Of a stretch of 64,000 nucleotides of DNA, positions 2,160 to 38,601 are shown piece by piece (the stretch's first letter is position 1; each line of letters begins with the position of its first letter). Under the pieces are notes generated by a model, which made no database searches, was not told where the DNA came from, and saw only the letters and a list, made by a program, of their open reading frames with translations. Source of the stretch: Chitinivibrionales bacterium. Lineage in GTDB: Bacteria > Fibrobacterota > Chitinivibrionia > Chitinivibrionales > FEN-1185. Location: the NCBI GenBank assembly GCA_035516255.1, contig DATJAL010000013.1, positions 62,001-126,000 of the forward strand, written 5' to 3'. The position numbers were made by a program, and so were the translations under genes.

Positions 2160-2390
2160 AAATATTCATGGCGCCCGCCGGTCACGACTCCGCGCCCCCT
2201 TACGGGCCCGGCCTATCGGCCTCGTTGCCGGACCGCCCGAGTCACCTTTGGCGAGGGGTCGGCCGGCAATTCGCTTTGGCTCACCCTCCGGTCCGCACCG
2301 GCGCGAAACATCATTCCGTTTGTTTACTTAGAGACATCCCGAATAAAAACATTTTGTTTTCAGACCAACTTTCAAGTTATAACGTTCCCT
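2160..2390. other. Intergenic GC-rich palindromic stretch
   Basis: There is no gene here. Positions about 2165-2310 are dense in inverted repeats: GGCC-TATC-GGCC near 2212, and a TTGCCGG (2224-2230) that can pair with CCGGCAA further on (about 2264-2270). The composition is far more GC-rich than the following AT-rich 2330-2390. It resembles the other structured intergenic elements of the window but cannot be aligned confidently with any of them. Confidence 0.4.
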
Positions 2391-2578
2391 TCTTCCACCG
2401 TGTAAAGCGCGCGCTGCCACGAGTGTGTCGCCAGCCACTGCTATCGCCCGCAAATCACTATGGTACCGGCGCCAAAGAGGGGGTGTGGGTGCAGATCACC
2501 GCCACTCCCTTTTGTCCAGATTGATTTTACTATGAGGGAGTGGCGGAAGCTGCACCCCAGGGGGAGACCTCCCCCTCC
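2391..2578 (+). repeat. Structured dispersed element family A, copy 1
   Basis: This copy shares with 8235-8421 and 33028-33216 a 5' region ending in GGCGCCAAAGAGGGGG, then a long hairpin. The outer arm GGGTGCAG (2487-2494) pairs with CTGCACCC (2550-2557). The internal loop is ATCA opposite AAG. The inner 11-bp arm CCGCCACTCCC (2499-2509) pairs with GGGAGTGGCGG (2536-2546). A short GGGGGAG/CTCCCCC hairpin closes the element. Relative to the other copies both arms differ but stay complementary. It lies between two convergent genes. Confidence 0.8.
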
Positions 2579-2618: not shown

Positions 2619-4529
2619 TTAATTGGAAAGCTTCAGCACGCTCTGCATCTTCACCGTCTTTGCTTCCTTGTTCGACAATCTCACGCCCTGCGCCTTCACT
2701 CCCTTGATCAGGTAGTCCTTGAGGTTGAACTGCTCCTCGAGCACGCGCAGGTACGGTTTGGGCTTGTACTCCACCTGGATGGTGCCCTCGGGCTCGGTGG
2801 TGAACATCTGCACCGTTGCGCCCTCGGGCACGAGCTGGTAGGCCTTCTGCATGATGAACTGCTCGATCCGGCAGCGCTTGATGCAGGGGCACATGTTCTC
2901 GGGGTCCTTGTAGACAAGCGAGAAAACGAGGTCCTTGTCCGGGAACCCGCAGTGGAGCATGCCCTTGTCCACGAACAGCTTGTCGGGCGCGTTGATCACC
3001 GAGTACACGCCGTTCTTGCGGATCACCAGGATGCGGTCGTAGAGCGACACGTCGAACAGGGCAACGCCGTTCACCTCGTAGCCGAGGTACCCGTTGTCGC
3101 GGTCGTACCGCAGCTTGAGGTTGCGCTGCGCCACTTCGCGCACGTCAACGCGCTCGAACGACACGACCTCGGTGCGGCGCAGGTATTGCTTGCCGTACTT
3201 GAGGATCAGATCCTGCAGAAACCCTATGGTGTAGTCGATGATGTCGTCGAGCGAATGTTTGATCTCCTTGAGCCGCGTCTTGATCTCGTCCATCTCATGC
3301 TGGGCTTTGTTGATGTCGTAGGCGGAGATCCGGCGTATGGGGATCTTGAGCAGGGTCTCGACGTCGTCGGGCGTGACCTCACGCTTGATGTCCTTCTGGA
3401 AAGGTTCCAGTCCGTCAATCACTGCCTTGACCACGCCCTCTTGCGTTTTCTTGTCCTCGATTTTTTTATAGACGCGGTTCTCGATAAAGATCTGCTCGAG
3501 CGTCTTGGCGTGGAGCCGGTCGCGCAGGTGGCCGTCCTCGATCTTGAGCTCGCGGCGCAAGAGCTCCACGAGCCGGTCCGCATTATATTTGAGCACGTCG
3601 GACACGCTCATGGTGACGGGCTTGTTGTCCTGTATCACCACGACGTTTACCGTGGTGGAGACCTCGCAGTCGGTGAAGGCGTACAGCGCGTCCACGGTGT
3701 CCTGCGTGTGAACGCCGCGCGCGAGGTGGATCTCGATCTCCACCTGCTCCGACGTGAAGTCCTGTATGCCCGCGATCTTTATCTTGTTCTTGCGCGCCGC
3801 GTCTTCGATGCTCGCGATGAGGCTCTCGGTGGTGGTGCCGTAGGGGATCTCGCGCACCACGATGCGCTTGTCGTCCCTCGCGTCGAGCCGCGCGCGGATG
3901 CGCACCTTGCCGTTGCCCTCGTTGTATTCCGATATGTCCAGCATGCCGCCCGACGGGAAGTCGGGCCTGAGCGAGAACGTGTCCTTGTTGAGGTAGGAGA
4001 TCTGCGCCTGGAGCAGCTCGATGAAGTTGTGCGGCAGGATCTTGGTGGCCATGCCCACGGCGATACCCTCGGCGCCCTGCGCCAGCAGCACCGGCACCTT
4101 GGCGGGCAGGGCAACGGGCTCCTTGTTGCGGCCGTCGTAGGAATCGACGAAATCGGTGATCTCCGGGTTGAACAGCGTCTCCCTGGCCAGCGGCGTTAAG
4201 CGGCACTCGATGTAACGCATGGCCGACGCCTCGTCGCCGGTGAGCACGTTGCCGAAATTTCCCTGTTTGTCAATAAACAAGTCCTTGTTGGCAAGGCCGA
4301 CGAGCGCGGCGAAGATCGACGCGTCGCCGTGCGGGTGGTATTTCATGCATTGGCCCACGGCGTTGGCCACCTTGTGGAACTTGCCGTCGTCCATTTCATG
4401 CAGCGTGTGCAGGATGCGGCGCTGCACCGGCTTGAGCCCGTCCGACAGGTCCGGGATGGCGCGGTCTTTGATGACGTAGCTCGCGTACTCGATGAAATAG
4501 TTTTTATATAATGCGGGGACGAACGCCAT
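2619..4529 (-). CDS. parC: Topoisomerase IV / gyrase-like subunit A (ParC type)
   Basis: This is the DNA cleavage and rejoining subunit of a type II topoisomerase. The N-terminal region shows the quinolone-resistance-region motif KYHPHGDAS (about 63-71) and the catalytic tyrosine in SAMRYIE (Tyr106). [12 protein letters not shown] loop follows, then the coiled tower with many charged residues around 390-450. The protein is 636 residues, shorter than GyrA (usually over 800). Only part of the C-terminal beta-pinwheel seems present, as in the ParC-like second subunit of Chlamydiae and Bacteroidetes. It lies downstream of parE on the same strand with a 138-base gap. Calling it ParC rather than GyrA is inference from length and partner. 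Confidence 0.88.
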
Positions 4530-6614: not shown

Positions 6615-6726
6615 CTGGTGGGGACACCACTTCGTGGTTTCCCCTGAGGTGCAGCTTCCGGCGCGCCTCGGATAGCTTGAAATGTTCAAAGCGCGCCGGC
6701 GATCTGCACCCACACCCCTTCCCCAA
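6615..6726 (-). repeat. Structured dispersed element family A, copy on minus strand
   Basis: Read on the minus strand it repeats the family A plan: GGGG-rich lead, outer arm GGTGCAG with CTGCACC, an internal loop ATCG opposite AAG, and an inner arm CCGGCGCGC with GCGCGCCGG. On the plus strand these are 6648-6654 with 6704-6710, and 6658-6666 with 6691-6699. The closing hairpin is longer here (ACCAC/GTGGT inside GGGG/CCCC, 6619-6643). The inner arm has a wholly different sequence from the other copies yet still pairs perfectly. Confidence 0.75.
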
Positions 6727-6837
6727 AGTCAACTCATCTTTTCCATTATCAAGACAAAACTTCAACTTATACACCTCCGCAACAAACTAAAACCAGGTCC
6801 GGAGTCACTACCGCACTTTTACCCATCAAATCTTTCT

Positions 6838-7022
6838 CGACGCGTTAGGGGCGAGCGGAGGCCGCGCCGGAACGCGGTGCTGCCCGGACCCGGCTTTTTG
6901 CGAAGCAAAAAGCATACGGGCCGTGGCAGCCCGAGCCCAAGGCGAGACCGGAGTGAGAACCCACCCCAATGGCTGGCGCAATTTGTTGCGCCAGCCATTG
7001 GGGGAACGCCCGTATTTTTTTC
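6838..7022 (+). repeat. Structured dispersed element family C, copy 1
   Basis: It shares with 27971-28135 the string GAGGCCGCGC-GGA-CGCGGTGCTGCCCGGACC, a variable hairpin (here GCTTTTTGC-GAA-GCAAAAAGC), then AT and GGGCCGTGGCAGCCCGAGCC, then AAGGCGAGACCGGA. After a variable part comes GGGGAACGCCCG and a T-run. In this copy the variable part is a perfect 17-bp hairpin (6965-6981 with 6986-7002, loop TTTG). It ends 45 bases before the reductase start codon. Confidence 0.75.
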
Positions 7023-8188: not shown

Positions 8189-8234
8189 CAATAATGGAGT
8201 TCGAAAGTAATCAACCTCGGCTATTATAATTGTC

Positions 8235-8421
8235 TTTTTCCGCAGAATAATAGCGCGCGCTGCCACAGTCGTCTCGCCAGCCACTTCTCGTATCCGCGAA
8301 TCACGGGAGTATTGGCGCCAAAGAGGGGGGTGTGCCCCCGGATCACCGCCGCATCCCGCCGCACATTCTACTTGACATCTGGGATGCGGCGGAAGCCGGG
8401 GGCCAGGGGGAGACCTCCCCC
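8235..8421 (+). repeat. Structured dispersed element family A, copy 2
   Basis: This is the best-formed copy. The outer arm GCCCCCGG (8334-8341) pairs with CCGGGGGC (8396-8403). The internal loop is ATCA/AAG. The inner 12-bp arm CCGCCGCATCCC (8346-8357) pairs with GGGATGCGGCGG (8381-8392). The closing hairpin is GGGGGAG-AC-CTCCCCC (8406-8421). Upstream homology to copy 1 runs from about 8258 (GCGCGCTGCCAC, then CGCCAGCCAC). It lies between convergent genes, followed by the terminator of the giant TPR gene. Confidence 0.85.
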
Positions 8422-8445
8422 ACCATATCATTACAAAATATAAAA

Positions 8446-8517: not shown

Positions 8518-11500
8518 TTATTTCTTCTTCTTGCCCGACTCCTCAAGAATCTCCTTATTGTTAGGATCAAGCTTGAGCGCCTTGTCAAGATGGAGCTGGT
8601 AATCGGCCATGTTCTTCTGGACCTTCGCGAGCTTGGCGAGCCCGAGCTCCGCGAGCGCGTAGTTCGGGTCGGCCTTGAGCGCGCGGTCGTAGAACGTCTT
8701 GGCCCACGGCAGCTTCGACTGCATCAGGTACACCTCGGCGCGCTCGTACATCGCCGGCGCGTAGTTCGGGTTGATGTACGAGATCTCCTTATAGGTCTCC
8801 ACCGCGTCGTCCCACTTGCCCTGGATCGACTGGATCTTGCCGTAGAGCATGAGCGCCGGGATGTTCTCCGGGTCGGTGGCCGTGATGTCCTTGATCGTGC
8901 TCTCCGCCTGCGCGTACACGCCGGCCAGGTACAGCGCCTCGGCGTATTTGAGCAGCGTCTTGTTGTCGCGTTTCTTCTGGACAATGGCCGACATCACGTC
9001 GAGCGCCTTCTTGGACTGGCCCGTTGACTTGTACAACTCGAACAGCGTCATCTTGATGTTCTCGTCGTCGGGCTTGAGGCGGTCGGCCTTCTCAAGCAGG
9101 TCGGTTGCCTCGCGCGAACGATCGGTCTCGATGTAGCCCTGCGCCAGGGGAACCATGAACGCCGGGTCGTTGGGCTTGAGCGAATTGGCCATTTCGAGGA
9201 ACACCATGGCGTCGTTGACCTTGTGCTTTGAAAGCAGGAGCTCGCCGATCTTCCCCGCCGCGTCCGCGTTCTGCGGGTCGAGCTGAATGAACTTGCGGTA
9301 CGCGTCGAGCTCCTCCTTGTCCTTGCCGAGCTTGCCGTACACCTGGCCCATCTCGTACCACATGGCCGGGATGGTGTCGGCGAGCGCCGAGCACTTCTTG
9401 AGCAACGTGAGCGCCTTGTCAAGCGTCGCCTTCTGCTTGGCATAGTAGAGGCCCGCGGCGAGAAAGCTCTTGTAGTCCCTGGGAAAATTGACCGTGTTTT
9501 CCTCGTACATCCTCGCGGCCGCGGCCGGGTTTGTCGCTTCCGTCAATTGGGCCTTGCGCAGCGAGGCGTCTGCGTCATGCACGCTGGTGAACTTCGTGTA
9601 CACCGTATAGGCCTCGAGCGCCTTTGCCGCGTTTCCGGTTTTATCGTACGAATCGGCGAGCAGCTTCATCACCGTGACGACGCCCGGGTTCTTCTCGGTC
9701 GCCTTTGTGTTGAGTTCACGGAACCGTTCGAACAGCTCGATGGTCTTTTTATAGTCCTTGGTGTAATAGCACGCCTGGCCGTAGGTGAAAATGAAGTCCA
9801 TGGTCCTTGACGCCTCACCCGTCACCATGGCGAGGTACTTGACCGCCTCGTCGTAGTTCTTCGCGTTGAACGCGGCCTCGCCCACCGATTTGGCGACCGT
9901 CACGTCCTTCGGGTTCTTTTCAAGGTACTTCTTGTACATCGAAAGCGCCTGTGAGGCCTTGTTCTGCTTCGTGTACAGTTCGCCGAGCGCCTTGTAGTCG
10001 GCGGTGGCGTCGGGGTTCATCGCGATCGACTGCTCGTAGGAAATCACGGCCTCGTTGACCTCGCCGTTCTTCGCCTGGCACTGCGCCAGCGAGGAGAGCA
10101 CGCTCACGTTTTTCGGGTCGAGCGCGAGCGCCTTCTGGTACATCGCGCCGGCCTTGGCATACGATCCCTGCTTCTGGTAGATCGCTCCAAGCGACGCGTA
10201 CATGGTTGCGTCTGCCTCGCCCGCGGCCACCGCGCCGGCAAGCGCCTTGCCCACCTCCTCGGGCAGGCCTTTCGACATCACGAGCTCGACATACCGTTTG
10301 TAAAATCCCTTGATGGCGGGATCGGCCTTGAGCGCCGCGCGGTAGGCGGTGAGCGCGCCGGTCATTTCCTTCTGCTCGTACAGCATGTCGCCGAGGTTCT
10401 TCTGCGCCGCGGCATCGGCCGGATTGAGCGCCACGTATTTCTTGAGATACAGGGCCGCGTCGGCATTATTGCCCGCCTTCACCGCGATGTCGTAGAGGGT
10501 CTTGAACACATCGGGATTTGTGGGCGTGAGCACCGCGAGTTCCTTGAAAATATCTGCCGCCTTTGTGCAATTCCTGCTCTTATAGCACGCCTGGCCGTAG
10601 AGAAGCAGGTAGGAGGCGGTCTTGGCTTCCGGGCCCTGCACCATGGCAAGATATTTTACAGCCTCATCGTAGTCCTTGGCCTTGTATTCGTATTCGCCCA
10701 CGGCCATGGCGGTTTTGGTGTCATTCGGGTTCTTTTCCAACACCTTCTTGTACATGTTCATGGCCTGGTCGTTTTTGTTCTGCTTGCTGTACAGGTCGGC
10801 AAGCATCTTGTATTCCTTGATGTCCGACGGATTGAGGGCGACCACCTGCTCGTAGGTAATGGTGGCTTCCTTGACGTTGCCGCTCTTGGCCTGGCAGAAT
10901 CCCAGCGCCGACAGCGCCTCGTTGTTGCGCGGGTCAAGCTGGAGCGCCTTGGTGTACATCTCGATGGCCTTCGAGTAATTGGCCGCGTTCTTGTACACGC
11001 CGCCGAGGGTCATGTACATCGCGGCGTCGGCCTCGCCCGCCGCAATGGCGCCCTTGAGCGCCTTGACGATGTCGGCCTGCACGCCCTTTGCGGTCACCAG
11101 TTCGACATAGCGTTTGTAAAAGCCCTTTGCGGACGGGTCGGCGAGGAGCGCTGCATTGTAGGCCGCGAGCGCGCCGTCGGCGTTTTTCTCTTCGTATAAA
11201 ATGTCGCCGAGGTTCTTCTGCGCCGCCGCGTCGGCCGGCTTGAGGCTGAGGTATTTCTTGAGGTACACGGAGGCGTCTTTCTTGTTGCCGCCTTCCTTGG
11301 AGGAAATATCGTACAGCATCCTGAACACTTCGGGATTGAGCGGCGTCAGCTTGGCAAGCGCAAGCAGCACCTCTGAGGCCTTCTTGAAATTCTTGGCGTT
11401 GTAGCATGCCTGGGAATATTTGAACAGGAAGTCGGCGCTGCCGGCCTCGGCCCCGCTCACCATGCCGAAATATTTCATCGCCTCTTCATAATTCTTCTGG

Positions 11501-14500
11501 TTGTTGAGGTAATCGCCCACGATGAGCGCGATCTTGGAGTTTTGCGGCCGCTTTTCAAGATATTTCTTGTACATCGAAATGGCCTGGCTCGTCTTGTTCT
11601 GCTGCTCGTACAGGTCGCCGAGCACGCGGTATTCCTCCGCGGCGTCCGGGTTCATGGCGACCGCCTGCTCGTAGGAGATCACGGCCTCGTTGGTGTTGCC
11701 CATCTTGGCCTGGCACTGCGCGAGGGACGAGAGGATCTTCACCCGCTTCGGGTCGAGCTGCAGCGCCTTCTGGTAGTATTCGATCGCCTTTGCGCAAGCG
11801 CCTGATTTCGCATTGGTGTTTCCCATGGTCTCGTACATCTGCGCGTCGGCCTCGCCCGCGGCGATCGCACCGCGCATGGCCGGGAATATCTCCTTGGTGA
11901 GGCCGAGCGTGGTCACGATCTCAACGTACCGTTTGTAAAAGCCCTTGATTTCCGGGTCCGCCTTGAGCGCGGCCTGATACGCGGCAAGGGCGCCTTCAAA
12001 ATTCTTCTGTTCGTACAGCAGGTCGCCGAGGTTCTTCTGCGCCGCCGCGTCGCCGGGCCGCAGCGCGACGTACTTCTTGAGATACGCAGCCGCATCGGTC
12101 TTGGCGCCGCCGCTTTCGTTGGTGATATCATACATCATTTTATAGATGTCGGCGTTCGCCGGCGTGAGCACGGTCAGCCTCGTGAGCACCTCGATGGCCT
12201 TCTTGTAGTTCTTCGCAAAGTAGCACGCCTGTCCGTACTTGAAAAGGAAGTCGGCGTTTTTCGCCTCGGCGCCGCCCACCATGCCGTAATACTTGATGGC
12301 GTCGTCGTAGTTTTTCTGGCTGAGCGAGTAGTCGCCCACCGATTTTGCTATGGCGAAATCGGTCGGCTTCTTCTCGAGGTATTTCTTGTACATGGCCACG
12401 GCCTGCGACGTCTTGTTCTGCTTGCCGTACAGCTCGCCGAGGGCCTTGTATTCGTCAACCGCCTTGTCGTTCATGGCCACGGCCTGCTCGTAGGAGATCA
12501 CGGCCTCGTTGACGTTTCCGCTCTTGGCCTGGCAGCTCGCCAGCGCCGTGAGGATGGCGATGTTGCGGGGGTCGAACTGCAGCGCCTTCTGGTACATGTC
12601 GATGGCCTTCGGATAGGCGCCCTGGCGCTGGTACACGTTGCCCAGCGAGCTGTACATCGCCGCGTCGGCCTCGCCCGCCGCGACCGCTCCGGTGAGCGCC
12701 TTGACGAGTTCCTCGGACGTGCCCTGCGCGCCCACGAGCTCGACATACCGTTTGTAAAAGCCCTTGAGCGTCGGATCGGCCGCGAGCGCCGCGCGGTAGG
12801 CGGCAAGCGCGCCCGCGTAGTTTTTCGCCTCATACATCATGTCGCCGAGGTCCTTCTGCGTCGCAGCGTCGCTCGGTTTGAGCGCCGCGTACTTCTGCAG
12901 ATACGACGCGGACTCGGTTTTCGGGCTGCCGTCCTTGGAGGCGATGTCGTACAGGGTCCTGAACACGTCGGGGTTCTTCGGCGTGAGGGCCGCGAGGCGG
13001 ACATAGAGCTCCTTGGCCTTCTTGTAGTCCTTGACGGAATAGCACGCCTGGCCGTAGCGGAACAGCAGGTCGGTGTCGGTCGTTTCGGCGGTGGTGACCA
13101 GGGCGAAGTACTTGATGGCCTCGTCGTAGTTCTTCTGCGAATATTCGTAGTCGGCGATGGTTTTTGCGATGGACCGGTTGCCGGGCTTCTTGGCCAGGAA
13201 CTTTTTATAGACCGCGACGGCCTGGTTCGTTTTCTTCTGCTGCATGTACAGATCGCCGAGGGCCTTGTATTCGTCAACCGCCTTGTCGTTCATGGCGACC
13301 GCCTGCTCGTAGGAGATCACGGCCTCGTTGACGTTGCCGCTCTTGGCCTGGCAGAACGCCATGGACGAAAGCACGGCCACGTTTTTCGGGTCGAGCTGCA
13401 TTGACTTTTGATACATTTCGATGGCCTTGGCCCACGCGGCCTGCTTCTGATACACGTTGCCGAGCGAGCTGTACATGGCGGCGTCCGCCTCGTTGGCGTT
13501 GATCGCGCCGGTGAGCGCCTTGACAAGCTCCTCGGGCGTGCCTTGAGCGCCCACGAGCTCGACATACCGTTTGTAAAAGCCCTTGAGCGACGGGTCGGCG
13601 GTGAGCGCCGCCCGGTACGCGGCGAGTGCGCCGGAATAATTCTTGATGTCGTACATCATGTCGCCGAGGTTTTTCTGGGCCTCGGCGTCGCCGGGCTTGA
13701 GCGCCGCGTATCTCTGGAGGTATTGCGACGCCTCGGTGCGCTCGGTGCTGTCCTTCGAGGTGATGTCGAACAGGAGCCGGTACACTTCGGCGTTTTTGGG
13801 ATTAAGCACCGCAACCTGGGCCAGGAGCTCCTTGGCTTTCTTGAAATTCTTCGCGTAATAGCACGATTGGCCGTATTTGAACATCAGCTCGCCGTCCTTT
13901 GCCTCGGCGCCGCCCACCATGGCGTAGTATTTGTTCGCCTCTTCGTAGTCCTTCTGGCCGAATTCGTAGTCGGCCACCAGCTTCGCGATGCGGTATTCGC
14001 CCGGCTTCTTGGCCAGGTAGCGTTTGTAAACGCCGACGGCCTGGGCGGTCTTGTTCTGCTGCTGGTACAGGTCGCCGAGCGCCTTGAGCTCGTCGACGGC
14101 CTTGTCGTTCATGGCGATGGCCTGCTCGTAGGAAACGATGGCCTCCTTGGCGTTGCCGGTCTTGGCCTGGCAGTGCGCGAGCATGCTGAGCACCGCGGTG
14201 TTCCTGGGGTCGAGCTGGATGGATTTCTGGAACATCTCGATTGCCTTGGGGCAGAATCCCTGTTTGAGATAGAGCGAGCCGAGCGAGGCATAGGTCTGCG
14301 CGTCGGCCTCGCCGGTGGTGACCGCGCCGGTGAGCGCCGCGGTGAGCTCGGCGGGCTCGGCATTGGGCCCGAGCAGCTCCGCATACCGTTTGTAAACTCC
14401 CTTCGCCGCCGGGTCTATCTTGACCACCGCGCGGTAGGCCGCGAGCGCGCCGGCCATTTCCTTCTTTTCGTAGAGCAGGTCGCCGAGCGCCTTCTGCGCG

Positions 14501-16308
14501 GCGGCGTCGCCGGGTTTGATGGCGACATACGACCTGAGGTAGCCGGCGGCCTCGGTGGTGTTATTCATCTTCATTGCGATGTCGTACAGGTTCCTGAAGA
14601 TCTCCGCGTCACGCGGCGAGAGCTGCGCAAGCTCCTTGAACTCCTCGAGCGCGGCCTTGGTGTCGCCCTGCGACAGGGTGTAGCGCGCGAGCCGCTGGCG
14701 CGATTGGATGTTGCGGGGCTCAAGGGCGAGGATCTTCCGGTCTATCTCGGCGAGCCGCGCCGGCTCGTTGAGCTGCTCATAACATATCGCGAGCTGTTCC
14801 CAATATTCCTTGTTGTTCGGCTGCTTGCGCACCATGAACTCGAACTGGTCCTTCGCCTCCTTGTAGTTTTTGTCCTTCATGTAAATGCTGGAAAGAATGA
14901 CGCGTGGCTCCCAGAGCGTGGCGTCGAGGTGCAGCGCGGACTCGGCCGCGTCGCGCGCCATGTCGGGCTGGTTGAGCTCATAGGCGGCCATGGCCATGCC
15001 CTGCGCGGCCGGCGCCGAGCGCTCGAGGGTGTAACTCTTCTGGAAATACTTGGCGGCGTCCTGGTATTTTTTCGCCTTCAGGTTGTAGTCGCCGAGCGCC
15101 AGCTGGATCTTGGGATTGTTGGGGTTGAGCGCGAGCATTTTTTCATAGACGACCTTGGCCTTCTCAAGCATCCCGGCCTTGGTGTACATTTCGCCGAGCC
15201 TCGCGTAGGCCTCGACGTCCGTGCTGTTGACCTCGAGCTCCCTTTCAAGATAGACCATGGCCTTTTTCGGGACGTCGAGCCCCTCGTAGCAGCGGGCGAG
15301 GAGGACATTGATGCCCGGGACGATTTTTCCGGTCGAATCGATTGCGTCGATCGCCTCGAAATGCACGACCGCGGCCTGGTAATTCTTTTTATCGAGCTGA
15401 TAGGTGCCCACCACTTTGTGCGCATCCAGCACCTCTTTGGCCTTCGAGGGTCCTACTTTGTCAAGAAAGAGCTGGTATGCTTTGGCGATCTTTTCGGGGT
15501 CGGCATTGGACTTGGAGAGCGCGGTGGCCCACATGTAGTATTCCTGCGCGCCAAACTGCGGCTTTGACGACGCCTCCTCGAACTCAGCGGCGGCCTCGCC
15601 GAATTTCTGTTCGTTGTAATAAATTTTCGCCAGGTCGAAGCTCGCGTCGACCGACGTTGGCTTTTTCTCCTTTGCCAGCTTGAGATAAACGACGGCGGAT
15701 TCGGGCGGGCTCACCTCGCCGATTTTGAGCGCCAGCACCGGGTCGGGCTGCTTTGCATACACCATCTTGAGCAGTTCCACCGCCTTGGGATAGTTCTTTT
15801 CGTTGTACAGAATGACGCCGAGCTCCTTGACCGCGGTGATGTTCGACGGATCGGCCTCAACGACCTTTTCGAGCGCCTTCTTGGCCTCGGCGGGTTTGCC
15901 GAGCGCGATGCACGCGCGCGCGTATTCCCAGCTCGCGTCGGCCGTGAAGTTCACCTCAAGGGCCTTTTTCGCCATGGGCGCGGCCTGGGCCGGCTGGTTG
16001 AGGGAATTGTACACCTTTGCGATGCCGAGGTAGGCCTCGTAATTCTTCGCGTCCATCCGGGTCGCCACCAGATAGCAGGCGAGCGCCTTCTCGGTAAGGC
16101 CCGTCTCAAGGTTGGCGCGGCCGACCTTGACCCATGTCGCCGCGTCGCGCGCCGTGGTAGGAATGTTCTTTTCCGCATAGGCGAGCGCCTCGGTGTATTT
16201 CTTCGCCTCAATCAACTTGTCAAATTGCTCGTCGGAATAGGCGAAGGTGGCGGCAAGCAGAATCAGTGCGGAAACAATGTAGCGGATGTGATGGCGACTC
16301 CTGGTCAT
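8518..16308 (-). CDS. Giant exported TPR protein with repeated 273-aa modules (about 2,596 aa)
   Basis: I start at the ATG at 16308, eight bases after an AAGGAG site. The slightly longer GTG start overlaps that site. Residues 1-26 are a signal peptide (basic start, then SALILLAATFAYS), so the product is exported. The rest is almost entirely TPR. The central part is a tandem array of large modules: a KRYVE/KRYAE anchor recurs at plus-strand positions 10295, 11111, 11930, 12749, 13568 and 14387. The spacing is 816 or 819 bases, or 272-273 residues, roughly eight 34-residue TPRs. Phrases such as EAVISYEQAVAMN recur in each module. The protein ends in a lysine run. It is probably a very long superhelical periplasmic scaffold; partners unknown. 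Confidence 0.93.
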   Translation of the reverse strand: MTRSRHHIRYIVSALILLAATFAYSDEQFDKLIEAKKYTEALAYAEKNIPTTARDAATWVKVGRANLETGLTEKALACYLVATRMDAKNYEAYLGIAKVYNSLNQPAQAAPMAKKALEVNFTADASWEYARACIALGKPAEAKKALEKVVEADPSNITAVKELGVILYNEKNYPKAVELLKMVYAKQPDPVLALKIGEVSPPESAVVYLKLAKEKKPTSVDASFDLAKIYYNEQKFGEAAAEFEEASSKPQFGAQEYYMWATALSKSNADPEKIAKAYQLFLDKVGPSKAKEVLDAHKVVGTYQLDKKNYQAAVVHFEAIDAIDSTGKIVPGINVLLARCYEGLDVPKKAMVYLERELEVNSTDVEAYARLGEMYTKAGMLEKAKVVYEKMLALNPNNPKIQLALGDYNLKAKKYQDAAKYFQKSYTLERSAPAAQGMAMAAYELNQPDMARDAAESALHLDATLWEPRVILSSIYMKDKNYKEAKDQFEFMVRKQPNNKEYWEQLAICYEQLNEPARLAEIDRKILALEPRNIQSRQRLARYTLSQGDTKAALEEFKELAQLSPRDAEIFRNLYDIAMKMNNTTEAAGYLRSYVAIKPGDAAAQKALGDLLYEKKEMAGALAAYRAVVKIDPAAKGVYKRYAELLGPNAEPAELTAALTGAVTTGEADAQTYASLGSLYLKQGFCPKAIEMFQKSIQLDPRNTAVLSMLAHCQAKTGNAKEAIVSYEQAIAMNDKAVDELKALGDLYQQQNKTAQAVGVYKRYLAKKPGEYRIAKLVADYEFGQKDYEEANKYYAMVGGAEAKDGELMFKYGQSCYYAKNFKKAKELLAQVAVLNPKNAEVYRLLFDITSKDSTERTEASQYLQRYAALKPGDAEAQKNLGDMMYDIKNYSGALAAYRAALTADPSLKGFYKRYVELVGAQGTPEELVKALTGAINANEADAAMYSSLGNVYQKQAAWAKAIEMYQKSMQLDPKNVAVLSSMAFCQAKSGNVNEAVISYEQAVAMNDKAVDEYKALGDLYMQQKKTNQAVAVYKKFLAKKPGNRSIAKTIADYEYSQKNYDEAIKYFALVTTAETTDTDLLFRYGQACYSVKDYKKAKELYVRLAALTPKNPDVFRTLYDIASKDGSPKTESASYLQKYAALKPSDAATQKDLGDMMYEAKNYAGALAAYRAALAADPTLKGFYKRYVELVGAQGTSEELVKALTGAVAAGEADAAMYSSLGNVYQRQGAYPKAIDMYQKALQFDPRNIAILTALASCQAKSGNVNEAVISYEQAVAMNDKAVDEYKALGELYGKQNKTSQAVAMYKKYLEKKPTDFAIAKSVGDYSLSQKNYDDAIKYYGMVGGAEAKNADFLFKYGQACYFAKNYKKAIEVLTRLTVLTPANADIYKMMYDITNESGGAKTDAAAYLKKYVALRPGDAAAQKNLGDLLYEQKNFEGALAAYQAALKADPEIKGFYKRYVEIVTTLGLTKEIFPAMRGAIAAGEADAQMYETMGNTNAKSGACAKAIEYYQKALQLDPKRVKILSSLAQCQAKMGNTNEAVISYEQAVAMNPDAAEEYRVLGDLYEQQNKTSQAISMYKKYLEKRPQNSKIALIVGDYLNNQKNYEEAMKYFGMVSGAEAGSADFLFKYSQACYNAKNFKKASEVLLALAKLTPLNPEVFRMLYDISSKEGGNKKDASVYLKKYLSLKPADAAAQKNLGDILYEEKNADGALAAYNAALLADPSAKGFYKRYVELVTAKGVQADIVKALKGAIAAGEADAAMYMTLGGVYKNAANYSKAIEMYTKALQLDPRNNEALSALGFCQAKSGNVKEATITYEQVVALNPSDIKEYKMLADLYSKQNKNDQAMNMYKKVLEKNPNDTKTAMAVGEYEYKAKDYDEAVKYLAMVQGPEAKTASYLLLYGQACYKSRNCTKAADIFKELAVLTPTNPDVFKTLYDIAVKAGNNADAALYLKKYVALNPADAAAQKNLGDMLYEQKEMTGALTAYRAALKADPAIKGFYKRYVELVMSKGLPEEVGKALAGAVAAGEADATMYASLGAIYQKQGSYAKAGAMYQKALALDPKNVSVLSSLAQCQAKNGEVNEAVISYEQSIAMNPDATADYKALGELYTKQNKASQALSMYKKYLEKNPKDVTVAKSVGEAAFNAKNYDEAVKYLAMVTGEASRTMDFIFTYGQACYYTKDYKKTIELFERFRELNTKATEKNPGVVTVMKLLADSYDKTGNAAKALEAYTVYTKFTSVHDADASLRKAQLTEATNPAAAARMYEENTVNFPRDYKSFLAAGLYYAKQKATLDKALTLLKKCSALADTIPAMWYEMGQVYGKLGKDKEELDAYRKFIQLDPQNADAAGKIGELLLSKHKVNDAMVFLEMANSLKPNDPAFMVPLAQGYIETDRSREATDLLEKADRLKPDDENIKMTLFELYKSTGQSKKALDVMSAIVQKKRDNKTLLKYAEALYLAGVYAQAESTIKDITATDPENIPALMLYGKIQSIQGKWDDAVETYKEISYINPNYAPAMYERAEVYLMQSKLPWAKTFYDRALKADPNYALAELGLAKLAKVQKNMADYQLHLDKALKLDPNNKEILEESGKKKK
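9960..14720 (-). repeat. Tandem coding modules of 816-819 bp inside the TPR gene
   Basis: At least six consecutive modules are recognisable by the CGTTTGTAAA anchor and by long identical blocks around it (for example the minus-strand words for ALYEQKN/MMYDIKN and AVAMNDKAVDEYKALG). Spacing is 819 bases four times and 816 once. The lack of indels and the high similarity indicate recent duplication or ongoing gene-conversion-like homogenisation (inference). Outer boundaries are approximate. Confidence 0.8.
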
Positions 16309-16559
16309 AGATAAGACTCCTTCCACGTCTCTATAAAATAAGGTTCTGTTTTTTCATTAATTAAAGGCAAATATGGCGTGAAGATTAAAAATATATAATA
16401 TATGGTATATAAGAAAATATTTAAAGTCAAATGTTTAGTGGGAATTTCCTGCAGAAGTTTTTTTATACCGCAACGAGGCTATTGACAACGATTTGCCGGG
16501 GAATCCGGGCATGCCCGACTTTTACCGCTCTCACCCGCCGTATTCGGTATACCGTTCCG

Positions 16560-19481: not shown

Positions 19482-19518
19482 TTCAAGGATAATTGATAGT
19501 TGACGGTTGACAGTTGAC

Positions 19519-30284: not shown

Positions 30285-30343
30285 AATGCCTGTTTGTGAG
30301 AAATGAGGTTTTAAAAGATAGGATTTATTATTTGCCACGATCG

Positions 30344-30454
30344 TTTGACCTCCCCCTTTATCCCCCTCCGAATCGGAGGGGGGAAAATACGATTTTTTTT
30401 GTAAATTCCTTCTCCCCTTCTCCGGTTCGGAAAAGGGCCGGAGGATGAGGTCAA
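30344..30454. repeat. MITE-like repeat, left flank of DUF559 gene
   Basis: The terminal inverted repeats are TTTGACCTC and GAGGTCAAA. Inside are two hairpins, CCCCCTCCG-AATCGGAGGGGG and CCCCTTCTCCG-GTTCGG-AAAAGGGG. About 80% of it matches the element at 30864-30970 in the same orientation. Its right end supplies the TGA stop codon of the DUF559 gene. Confidence 0.85.
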
Positions 30455-30858
30455 ATATCGTTCACAGCGTTATTTATTCTGTCAATAACATCATCGATGT
30501 CATGTTCGATCTCACTATTCTTGAACCGTAGTTCCCGGATTCCCCTTGTGCTGAAAACTTCATTCCTGTGTTTGTCAACCTTTTTCTGTTCTTCATCATC
30601 GTGTATCGACCCATCAACCTCAATCACTAAATTTTTTTCCGCGCAGAAAAAATCGGCGATAAAACCTTCAATGATCTGTTGGCGCCTGAATTTAAGGCAA
30701 CCGCATTTCTTGCCTCTCAACCTGGACCATAGCATGGCCTCGGCCGGAGTCATGTTTTGCCGATATATTCTGGCAAGAGTAACCTTGCCTTTGGAAATTC
30801 TCTGGAGCTGAACCACGCCGGAATATTTTAATTTTATGTTTTCTGTTTTTAGAGCCAT
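30451..30858 (-). CDS. DUF559 nuclease-like protein
   Basis: The 135-residue protein is a DUF559 (PD-(D/E)xK / Vsr-like) domain: ARIYRQNMTPAEAMLWSRLRG, then FRRQQIIEGFIADFFC, and the catalytic-style NLVIEVDGSIHD. The core Glu/Asp and the following RNEVF segment are intact. Proteins of this family are predicted endonucleases without an assigned target. The gene sits exactly between two copies of a roughly 107-base MITE-like element. The start's ribosome site (GGGGCGG) lies in one copy and the stop codon in the other. Confidence 0.88.
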   Translation of the reverse strand: MALKTENIKLKYSGVVQLQRISKGKVTLARIYRQNMTPAEAMLWSRLRGKKCGCLKFRRQQIIEGFIADFFCAEKNLVIEVDGSIHDDEEQKKVDKHRNEVFSTRGIRELRFKNSEIEHDIDDVIDRINNAVNDI

Positions 30859-30863
30859 GTTTA

Positions 30864-30970
30864 TTTGACCGCCCCCTGTATCCCCCTCCGAATCGGAGGG
30901 GGAAAGATTCGTCTTATTAATTCTTTCTCCCCTTCTCCGATTCGGAGAAGGGGCCAGGGGATGAGGTCAA
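30864..30970. repeat. MITE-like repeat, right flank of DUF559 gene
   Basis: Same plan as 30344-30454: TTTGACC start, CCCCCTCCG-AATCGGAGGGGG hairpin, CTTCTCCG-ATTCGGAGAAG hairpin, GAGGTCAAG end. The two copies form a direct repeat around the DUF559 gene. Confidence 0.85.
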
Positions 30971-32936: not shown

Positions 32937-33027
32937 ACGAAAAATGCACGTTACCTATTTTCCGATTAACAACTCCGGAAATTACTTAATCGAAAACGGC
33001 ACTTCTACTTATACCCTTATAATATCT

Positions 33028-33216
33028 CTTCTTCCGCCGTGTAAACTCTCTATTACCACGGCCGCAACGCCAGCCACCCGAATGCCCGCCGGCCATGGGA
33101 GTATCGGCGCCACGGAGGGGGTGTGCCCCCGGATCGCCGCTGCATCCCGGCAACGCATATTTGCTTTACATTCGGGATGCGGTGGAAGCCGGGGGCCAGG
33201 GGGAGACCTCCCCCGC
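33028..33216 (+). repeat. Structured dispersed element family A, copy 3
   Basis: The outer arm GCCCCCGG (33125-33132) pairs with CCGGGGGC (33189-33196). The internal loop is ATCG/AAG. The inner arm CCGCTGCATCCCG (33137-33149) pairs with CGGGATGCGGTGG (33173-33185), with two G-T wobbles that preserve pairing. The closing hairpin GGGGGAGACCTCCCCC (33199-33214) is identical to copies 1 and 2. Confidence 0.83.
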
Positions 33217-38217: not shown

Positions 38218-38601
38218 GGAGGAAATATACCATAATCTAATTAAGAGATAGTTTTGTTTTTATTTCATGGAAATATCGCGGGGGAAGGCCCGCGCTCTAG
38301 CGACGGCCTGCGGTCGCCCCTGGCGCGAAAAGTCATCCACTCCATTAAGCACTTGACAAGTACCTATCGGTATATTAAAAAATTGGACATTTACATCTGA
38401 TCTTTTTTACGGGATTACTTGGTAATCGACCGCATCAAGGGTGCGGCCAGCGGAAGGCACGGGCCTGCACCGGCAGGTGCCCGGCCGCACCCGGGAGGGG
38501 ATAGCGAAGGGCCGGGCGTGCTTTACGAGTACGAAATAGTTGAAAAACGCGGAGCCCGACCGGGCCGGAGCGAGGGGGAAACTTCCCCCACCGGATTATT
38601 T
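38218..38601. other. Intergenic region with a family B element
   Basis: There is no gene in about 380 bases. A small hairpin (GCGAC/GTCGC near 38299-38316) lies in GC-rich sequence, then an AT-rich 38340-38410, then the family B element (38439-38593), ending just before the rlpA stop codon. Confidence 0.55.
38439..38593 (+). repeat. Structured dispersed element family B, copy 2
   Basis: A long 5' hairpin has outer arm GGGTGCGGCC (38439-38448) with GGCCGCACCC (38483-38492), and inner CCTGC-ACCG-GCAGG. It continues GGGAGGGGATAGCGAAGGGCCGGGCGTGC. The 3' end GGAGCGAGGGGGAAACTTCCCCC matches copy 1 at 19519 exactly over its last 17 bases. Confidence 0.65.

Follow-up and report, generated by a model that had tools for sequence, protein, structure and literature searches.

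The stretch analysed here (the window) is 64 kb (C13:62001-126000) of a 4.28-Mb draft genome (G000, 96.6% complete). It carries four copies of a hairpin element, which we designated family A, beside genes encoding ParC, ParE, MnmL, an aldo/keto reductase and Der. A first-pass annotation had claimed that the four follow a single plan. Reading and folding of the sequences bore this out in every copy: outer arms, internal loop, inner arms, apical loop and a closing G/C hairpin are common to all four, with folding z-scores of -3.1 to -4.6 relative to dinucleotide shuffles. The parts of each copy and the other repeats of the window mentioned below are as follows.

2170-2312; 6831-6900, minus strand; 38290-38333: repeat type Z (GGGCGTTCCC ... 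GGCTGCCACGG ... CGGGCAGCACCGCGCTCCAGCGCGGCCTCCAGTCCTGCCTAACGCG)
2378-2383, plus strand: TATAAC, a -10-like hexamer at the left edge of copy 1, a T1-type element
2388-2476, plus strand: T1 leader of copy 1 (CTTCTTCCACCGTGTAAAG ... CGCCAGCCAC ... CCGGCGCCAAA), conserved in sequence, with no consensus fold
2477-2485, plus strand: linker 1 of copy 1, GAGGGGGTG, constant across the phylum
2480-2576, plus strand: match of copy 1 to covariance model R1, 100.9 bits
2487-2557, plus strand: central hairpin of copy 1, with outer arms 2487-2494/2550-2557, internal loop ATCA 2495-2498 opposite AAG 2547-2549, and inner arms 2499-2510/2535-2546
2560-2575, plus strand: 3' hairpin of copy 1, GGGGGAGACCTCCCCC, its 5' side overlapped by linker 2, CAGGGGGA; not called as an intrinsic terminator
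6619-6718, minus strand: copy 2, a central hairpin with GGTGCAG/CTGCACC outer arms and no T1 leader, R1 66.5 bits; its longer 3' hairpin is at 6620-6644
8225-8326, plus strand: TATAAT (8225-8230) and T1 leader of copy 3
8327-8422, plus strand: linker 1, central hairpin with CCCCCG outer arms and 3' hairpin (8406-8421) of copy 3, R1 99.1 bits
19510-19632, plus strand: family B type element with another central module (GGGGGAGCGGAAGACC ... GGCTGAAGCGAGGGGGAAACTTCCCCC), R1 21.0 bits, E 0.025
33018-33117, plus strand: TATAAT (33018-33023) and T1 leader of copy 4
33118-33215, plus strand: linker 1, central hairpin and 3' hairpin (33199-33214) of copy 4, R1 94.1 bits; der lies 70 nt downstream
38440-38592, plus strand: second family B type element (GGTGCCCGGCCGCACCCGGGAGGGGATAGCGAAGG ... 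GGCCGGAGCGAGGGGGAAACTTCCCCC), R1 20.2 bits, E 0.037

The outer arms had been described as two types with two copies each, and the sequences read the same way: GGTGCAG/CTGCACC in the copy at 2487-2557 (plus strand) and the 6615 copy (minus strand), and GCCCCCGG/CCGGGGGC in the copies at 8334 and 33125 (both plus strand). The internal loop is ATC(A/G) with AAG opposite, and these bases, already noted as constant in the window, proved invariant within the covariance-model set. The inner arms are CCGCCACTCCC, CCGCCGCATCCC, CCGCTGCATCCC and CCGGCGCGC, the third of which resembles the second, with G-U pairs. Three copies close with the hairpin GGGGGAGACCTCCCCC, and the minus-strand copy has the longer GGGGAAACCACGAAGTGGTGTCCCC in its place; with up to three mismatches allowed, GGGGGAGACCTCCCCC occurs 10 times within the window, compared with 0.64 expected. 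A leader of about 90 nt, conserved in sequence and mostly unstructured, precedes the copies at 2391, 8235 and 33028 and is missing from the minus-strand copy.

Copy number and exchangeable modules

The genome and its relatives were searched with a covariance model, as the first-pass annotation had proposed. This model (R1) was built from 31 copies, and matches were accepted at E<=1e-3. There were 86 in G000 and 39 in the sole genome of the same genus (G001), with almost none in the other related genomes of the 61-genome sample: one weak match in the same-family genome G002, and one weak match in the other 58 together. The pattern GATCRCCR-N24..54-YGGAAGCYG matched 56 times in G000, including two matches inside coding sequence that look like chance, and zero times when reversed. 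Across the named genomes a strict family A pattern gave five apparently chance matches, none of them supported by R1, and the element was not matched in phage genomes. Rfam gave no match at the gathering score or at permissive E-values, in agreement with the earlier statement that no named RNA family could be recognised. The literature searched, mostly without subscription papers, contained no description of the element; REP, BIME and Frpo papers surfaced. The four window sequences are members of a large DNA-repeat family built from interchangeable hairpins.

The repeated unit is a chain that opens with a 5' module (a hairpin, or in many G000 copies the T1 leader) and linker GAGGGGGTG; the exchangeable central hairpin follows, then linker CAGGGGGA, and the G/C hairpin and CCCCC-ACCA complete it. 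The two linkers flanking the central hairpin are fixed, and whole hairpins are swapped between them; in some copies the central slot holds an unrelated perfect hairpin, for example GCCCGGCAATAAAAAAGACGC...TTTTTTATTGCCGGGC. The 5' modules are T1 (the leader with its TATAAT-like edge), T2 (CGCGGGTGCGCCC...CGGCCGCACCCAGGA) and T3 (TTGCGAAGGGGCG...CGCGCCCCTTTGCAGGA), and the 3' hairpin is also of several kinds. Inner-arm types were found with both outer types, and both outer types on T1 and T3 backbones; T3 mostly occurs with an ACCAC..GTGGT 3' hairpin, and T1 mostly with the short form. Different palindromic units are therefore combined, as in BIMEs, though in a fixed order. Several genomes of the phylum apparently share one locus (L176, L180, L182 and L183) at which the 5' hairpin differs and the remainder is kept. 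The family B elements at 19510 and 38440 look like a sister of family A with another central module. The one at 38440 has its 5' part in common with T2 copies of family A, and the B-type module is also present in virus-like contigs. Three G000 copies (L020, L048 and L115) carry a nested insertion, a ~60-nt insert (AAAAGGCATAATAAAATGGTGCGAAGCACC...ATGAAATGACA) within the outer arm.

Pairing, covariation and the T1 leader

In an alignment of 89 distinct copies, 94.5% of cells were paired, compared with 77.5% when partners were shuffled and approximately 43-59% when one arm was slid. Two-sided changes were found in 24 of the 26 pairs, and the covariation score was 0.388, versus 0.131 for shuffled and at most 0.091 for slid arms, where cells count sequences rather than events and the arm-slide control retains the relatedness of the copies. 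Judged by that control, pairs covary beyond copy relatedness, as expected of a structured RNA. The result was repeated with the 39 G001 copies and the single G002 copy. Both alignments were fitted to the structure, and a hand-made MAFFT alignment (A2) that was not so fitted agrees.

The inner arm is better evidence of covariation than the outer arms. Because the latter fall into two types, CCCCCG and GGTGCA/G, with few intermediates, they are probably best read as two founder variants, and covariation there is likely to represent a few events counted repeatedly. At the inner arm, 75 copies carry 31 different 7-nt arms, and 61 of the 75 pair at six or seven of the seven positions. Isolated non-Watson-Crick positions between good pairs are G-U in 52 cases and A-C in 19; this excess indicates that the plus strand folds as a single strand, either RNA or ssDNA, under selection.

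The first-pass annotation had concluded that the copies are conserved RNA rather than copied DNA. Its observation was right and indeed understated, and its RNA reading was half right. The fold is conserved, with covariation in two species and the G-U excess on the plus strand; however, the DNA has been copied and shuffled too, in that the leader is copied DNA and the modules assort, and the housekeeping genes alongside, the turnover and the near-identical copies of another lineage described below fit a mobile repeat. Covariation is usually taken as proof of functional RNA. Here it coexists with mobility, hairpin swapping and turnover, which makes family A a cautionary case for RNA discovery.

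Each T1 copy might nevertheless be a small RNA gene (~190 nt) comprising a -10 of its own, the leader, the large hairpin and the G/C hairpin, and might act in trans or, at the 3' end of the convergent neighbour, as an antisense RNA. The covariation, the plus-strand G-U excess and the invariant internal loop are what such a gene would display, and a TATAAT-like hexamer (at least 5 of 6 positions) lies near the start of the leader, mostly 9-12 nt ahead of it, in 35 of 40 T1 copies, compared with 13 of 240 control windows. Retention of this edge in T1 copies suggests transcription, but its direction is ambiguous. Neither a -35 nor any other sequence is conserved upstream of it on the plus strand in the 40 T1 copies, and on the minus strand the same bases read TTTACA-N17-TATTAT, pointing outward; the hexamer may thus be a plus-strand -10 without a -35 or part of an outward minus-strand promoter to which the leader contributes TTTACA. 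On inspection, T2 and T3 copies and the minus-strand window copy have no such box. The 3' hairpins of the window copies also speak against an RNA gene, as they are not listed as intrinsic terminators: the sole call is a weak 5-pair sub-hairpin (6629-6616), and those of the three plus-strand copies drew no call on either strand. Moreover, the internal loop is dispensable, with plain hairpins filling the slot in other copies, and copy positions turn over. We therefore think it unlikely that T1 copies are RNA genes of this kind. The leader was also considered as a folded domain and rejected, since RNAalifold finds no consensus fold there.

Neighbouring genes and turnover of positions

Neighbours were assigned with a simple codon-usage gene caller, and its calls are approximate. 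At most one of 87 copies was predicted to lie within an ORF, and that ORF was weakly scored. Of the 86 G000 copies, 51 have a convergent 3' neighbour and lie a median of 21 nt from its stop codon; in G001, 17 of 39 do (median 22 nt). Where the 3' neighbour is co-directional, the median distance to its start is 104 nt in G000 and 63 nt in G001. The 5' neighbour is at a median distance of 320-380 nt. When both neighbours are convergent, the element is pressed to the 3' one (Wilcoxon p 2.4e-4, with 110 nt allowed for the leader). Family A is thus dispersed, intergenic and beside ORF 3' ends in the manner of REPs, which adjoin ORF 3' ends in other bacteria (PMC3733652). A second repeat type (Z, listed above) was found less than 600 nt away on the 5' side of 39 of 87 copies, versus 4 of 87 on the 3' side.

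The median of 21-22 nt to the convergent stop codon would suit an mRNA 3'-end element, whose hairpins on the neighbour's transcript form a bidirectional terminator or exonuclease barrier and whose copies are retained for that role. We consider this improbable as an account of the family: 35 of 86 G000 copies lie upstream of a co-directional gene, the plus-strand window copies lack a terminator call in either direction, and parC is followed by a different element in G001 and by none in G002.

Few positions are common to the two related genomes. In a comparison covering the neighbours of detected copies, G000 (87 copies) and G001 (39 copies) were found to have approximately four positions in common with matching orientation; a further two intergenic regions carry the element in both genomes with its orientation flipped, and no other position is shared. 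The MnmL-ParC-ParE genes are syntenic in G001, with ParC/ParE DNA 84-85% identical, and the family A copy is absent there. This mnmL-parC region was rejected as a clean empty site, as its spot is occupied by other repeat-like sequence, long and GC-rich (GGGGTAGTTTCTTGCGCCAGGGGCGACGG ... CTTCCCCCAC; L234, ~2990-3280 of the reversed locus).

Recent spread of near-identical copies was seen in one lineage. A 215-nt unit free of ORFs is present six times in G006 and once in G015, the copies being ~97% identical with unrelated flanks; between G006 and G015, by comparison, identity is 73% in a flanking coding stretch. The unit is a cousin rather than a member of family A, and the features of a MITE (no ORF, near-identical copies at unrelated sites) were found for the G006-type copies and not for family A. 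The ends of the G006-type unit are CTYAGC...GGCTYAG, and the single copy with both flanks has CTTAG/CCTAG. The flanks of the G006/G015 pair are too diverged for an empty site, and a clean empty site with target duplication was not found; for family A, no terminal inverted repeats with target-site duplication were seen.

Spread across replicons and the mobile-repeat reading

The pattern GAGGGGGTG-N35..65-CAGGGGGA was found in 44 of 168 genomes of the phylum, with zero matches for the reversed control. BLAST of one phylum element gave matches mostly on alphaproteobacterial plasmids, where the chain is complete, with linker, variable hairpin and G/C hairpin all present. On six annotated plasmids the chain precedes divergent genes for DUF932, ArdC-like metallopeptidase or toprim proteins, ~80-95 nt from their start; on one of the six the gene is annotated as hypothetical. 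In addition, 11 IMG/VR stretches were found by the 5' hairpin alone; the 3' G/C hairpin was present in 10 of them, the eleventh ending at the contig edge, compared with rates of 2% at random places and 0.7% in shuffled segments. We take the plasmid and virus-like matches as putative homology of architecture, a match that rests on ~33 nt and the plan. Plasmid copies (L189-L200, L211) also have in common an extra conserved stretch on the start-codon side (CGCGACGGGCGCCGGAAGCCTCTCTCCAGCCCTCAACCCGTCACGG), which precedes genes of several unrelated families; that region has no Rfam match.

The plasmid relatives resemble Frpo/ssi sites in preceding genes of leading-region type, and plasmid leading regions carry anti-defence genes and Frpo promoters (PMC11541004). 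The element could accordingly be a ssDNA promoter or priming site of such regions, with the chromosomal copies as its descendants. Unlike Frpo, however, it has no -10/-35 hexamers inside the hairpins on inspection, chromosomal copies are located elsewhere, with those of the window flanking housekeeping genes, and G000 shows no clear replication-strand bias relative to GC skew, which is weak in that genome; we regard this origin as very doubtful. Recombination sites like integron attC, which share the position after stop codons and the priority of structure over sequence, are an explanation we find hardly credible, as copies are single, dispersed, in both orientations and beside housekeeping genes in the window rather than in arrays, and no RYYYAAC/GTTRRRY pair frames the unit on inspection.

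On balance, we lean towards reading family A as a REP/BIME/MITE-like intergenic mosaic that is non-autonomous and keeps its single-strand fold. One strand, exposed as ssDNA, would fold into a row of hairpins, and a trans-acting enzyme would recognise the folded strand, needing the pairing and the linkers rather than the hairpin sequences. The recognised strand would then be copied elsewhere, and recombination or template switching at the G-rich linkers could swap hairpins between copies. Copies would persist where they are least harmful, immediately downstream of stop codons or ~100 nt ahead of start codons. The survivors may act as barriers at the 3' end of the adjacent transcript, a role that has been proposed for REPs.

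Known repeats resemble family A in part. Like the GTAG and CGTC super-families of REP/BIME repeats (PMC3733652), it is high in copy number, palindromic, intergenic near ORF 3' ends, mosaic and able to form single-strand hairpins; unlike them, it has a unit of 100-230 nt in which fixed linkers join three different hairpins. Its core alone is ~97 nt, whereas a REP is a palindrome of 20-40 nt with an unpaired GTAG or CGTC tag, and it ends in GAGGGGGTG and CCCCC-NCCA with no such tag at the hairpin foot. Nor does it flank the REP-type transposases of its genome as a repeat with a cognate RAYT would. Bacterial MITE-like intergenic repeats include ERIC/IRU, RU-1/2/3 (PMC2759123) and Correia; compared by description rather than sequence, these are likewise 100-200 nt, dispersed and foldable, with no transposase gene, but family A swaps hairpins as cassettes and clear terminal inverted repeats were not found, the short CTNAGC ends being confined to the G006-type unit. 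Rhizobial intergenic mosaic elements (RIME), again compared by description and not sequence, are also mosaics of palindromes between genes.

Several points weigh against the mobile-repeat reading. No mobiliser was found, the Y1 transposase genes being flanked by other repeats; the search for a clean empty site was negative, as described above; stems drift while loops stay fixed, which implies selection on structure and is not expected of a dead repeat; and the TATAAT-like edge of T1 copies hints at transcription. As far as flanks can tell, a REP transposase was rejected as mobiliser because the RAYT-like genes of G000, G001 and G002 are flanked by other palindromes, and a Y1_Tnp match is absent in 9 of 22 element-bearing genomes. 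A group II intron or retroelement was also rejected, as G000, at its 96.6% completeness, has no RVT_1 match. One RAYT-like gene (L088 1160-1870, G000:C16) lies between GGCCCGACCTGAAGGT-type palindromes, and other Y1 genes in G001 and G002 contain or adjoin GTAGGGGC...GCCCCTAC repeats.

A bolder proposal, to which we give little credence, is that the mobile repeat belongs to a cross-phylum class of mobile element defined by architecture rather than sequence: three hairpins on constant G-rich linkers, the middle one swappable. Such elements would be moved by an enzyme that works on one folded strand, would reside on chromosomes, conjugative plasmids and virus-like contigs, and might be reused on plasmids as a single-strand control element before anti-restriction genes. 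If this is one homologous class across phyla and plasmids, the questions become which enzyme recognises a sequence-free fold, and what the fold does ahead of plasmid anti-restriction genes.

Two other repeat arrangements occur in the window. Positions 30334-30398 and 30854-30918 form a repeat pair, 82% identical, with a CCCCCTCCGAATCGGAGGGGG palindrome, and positions 8518-16326 on the minus strand hold a 2602-aa ORF with six internal repeats of ~819 nt.
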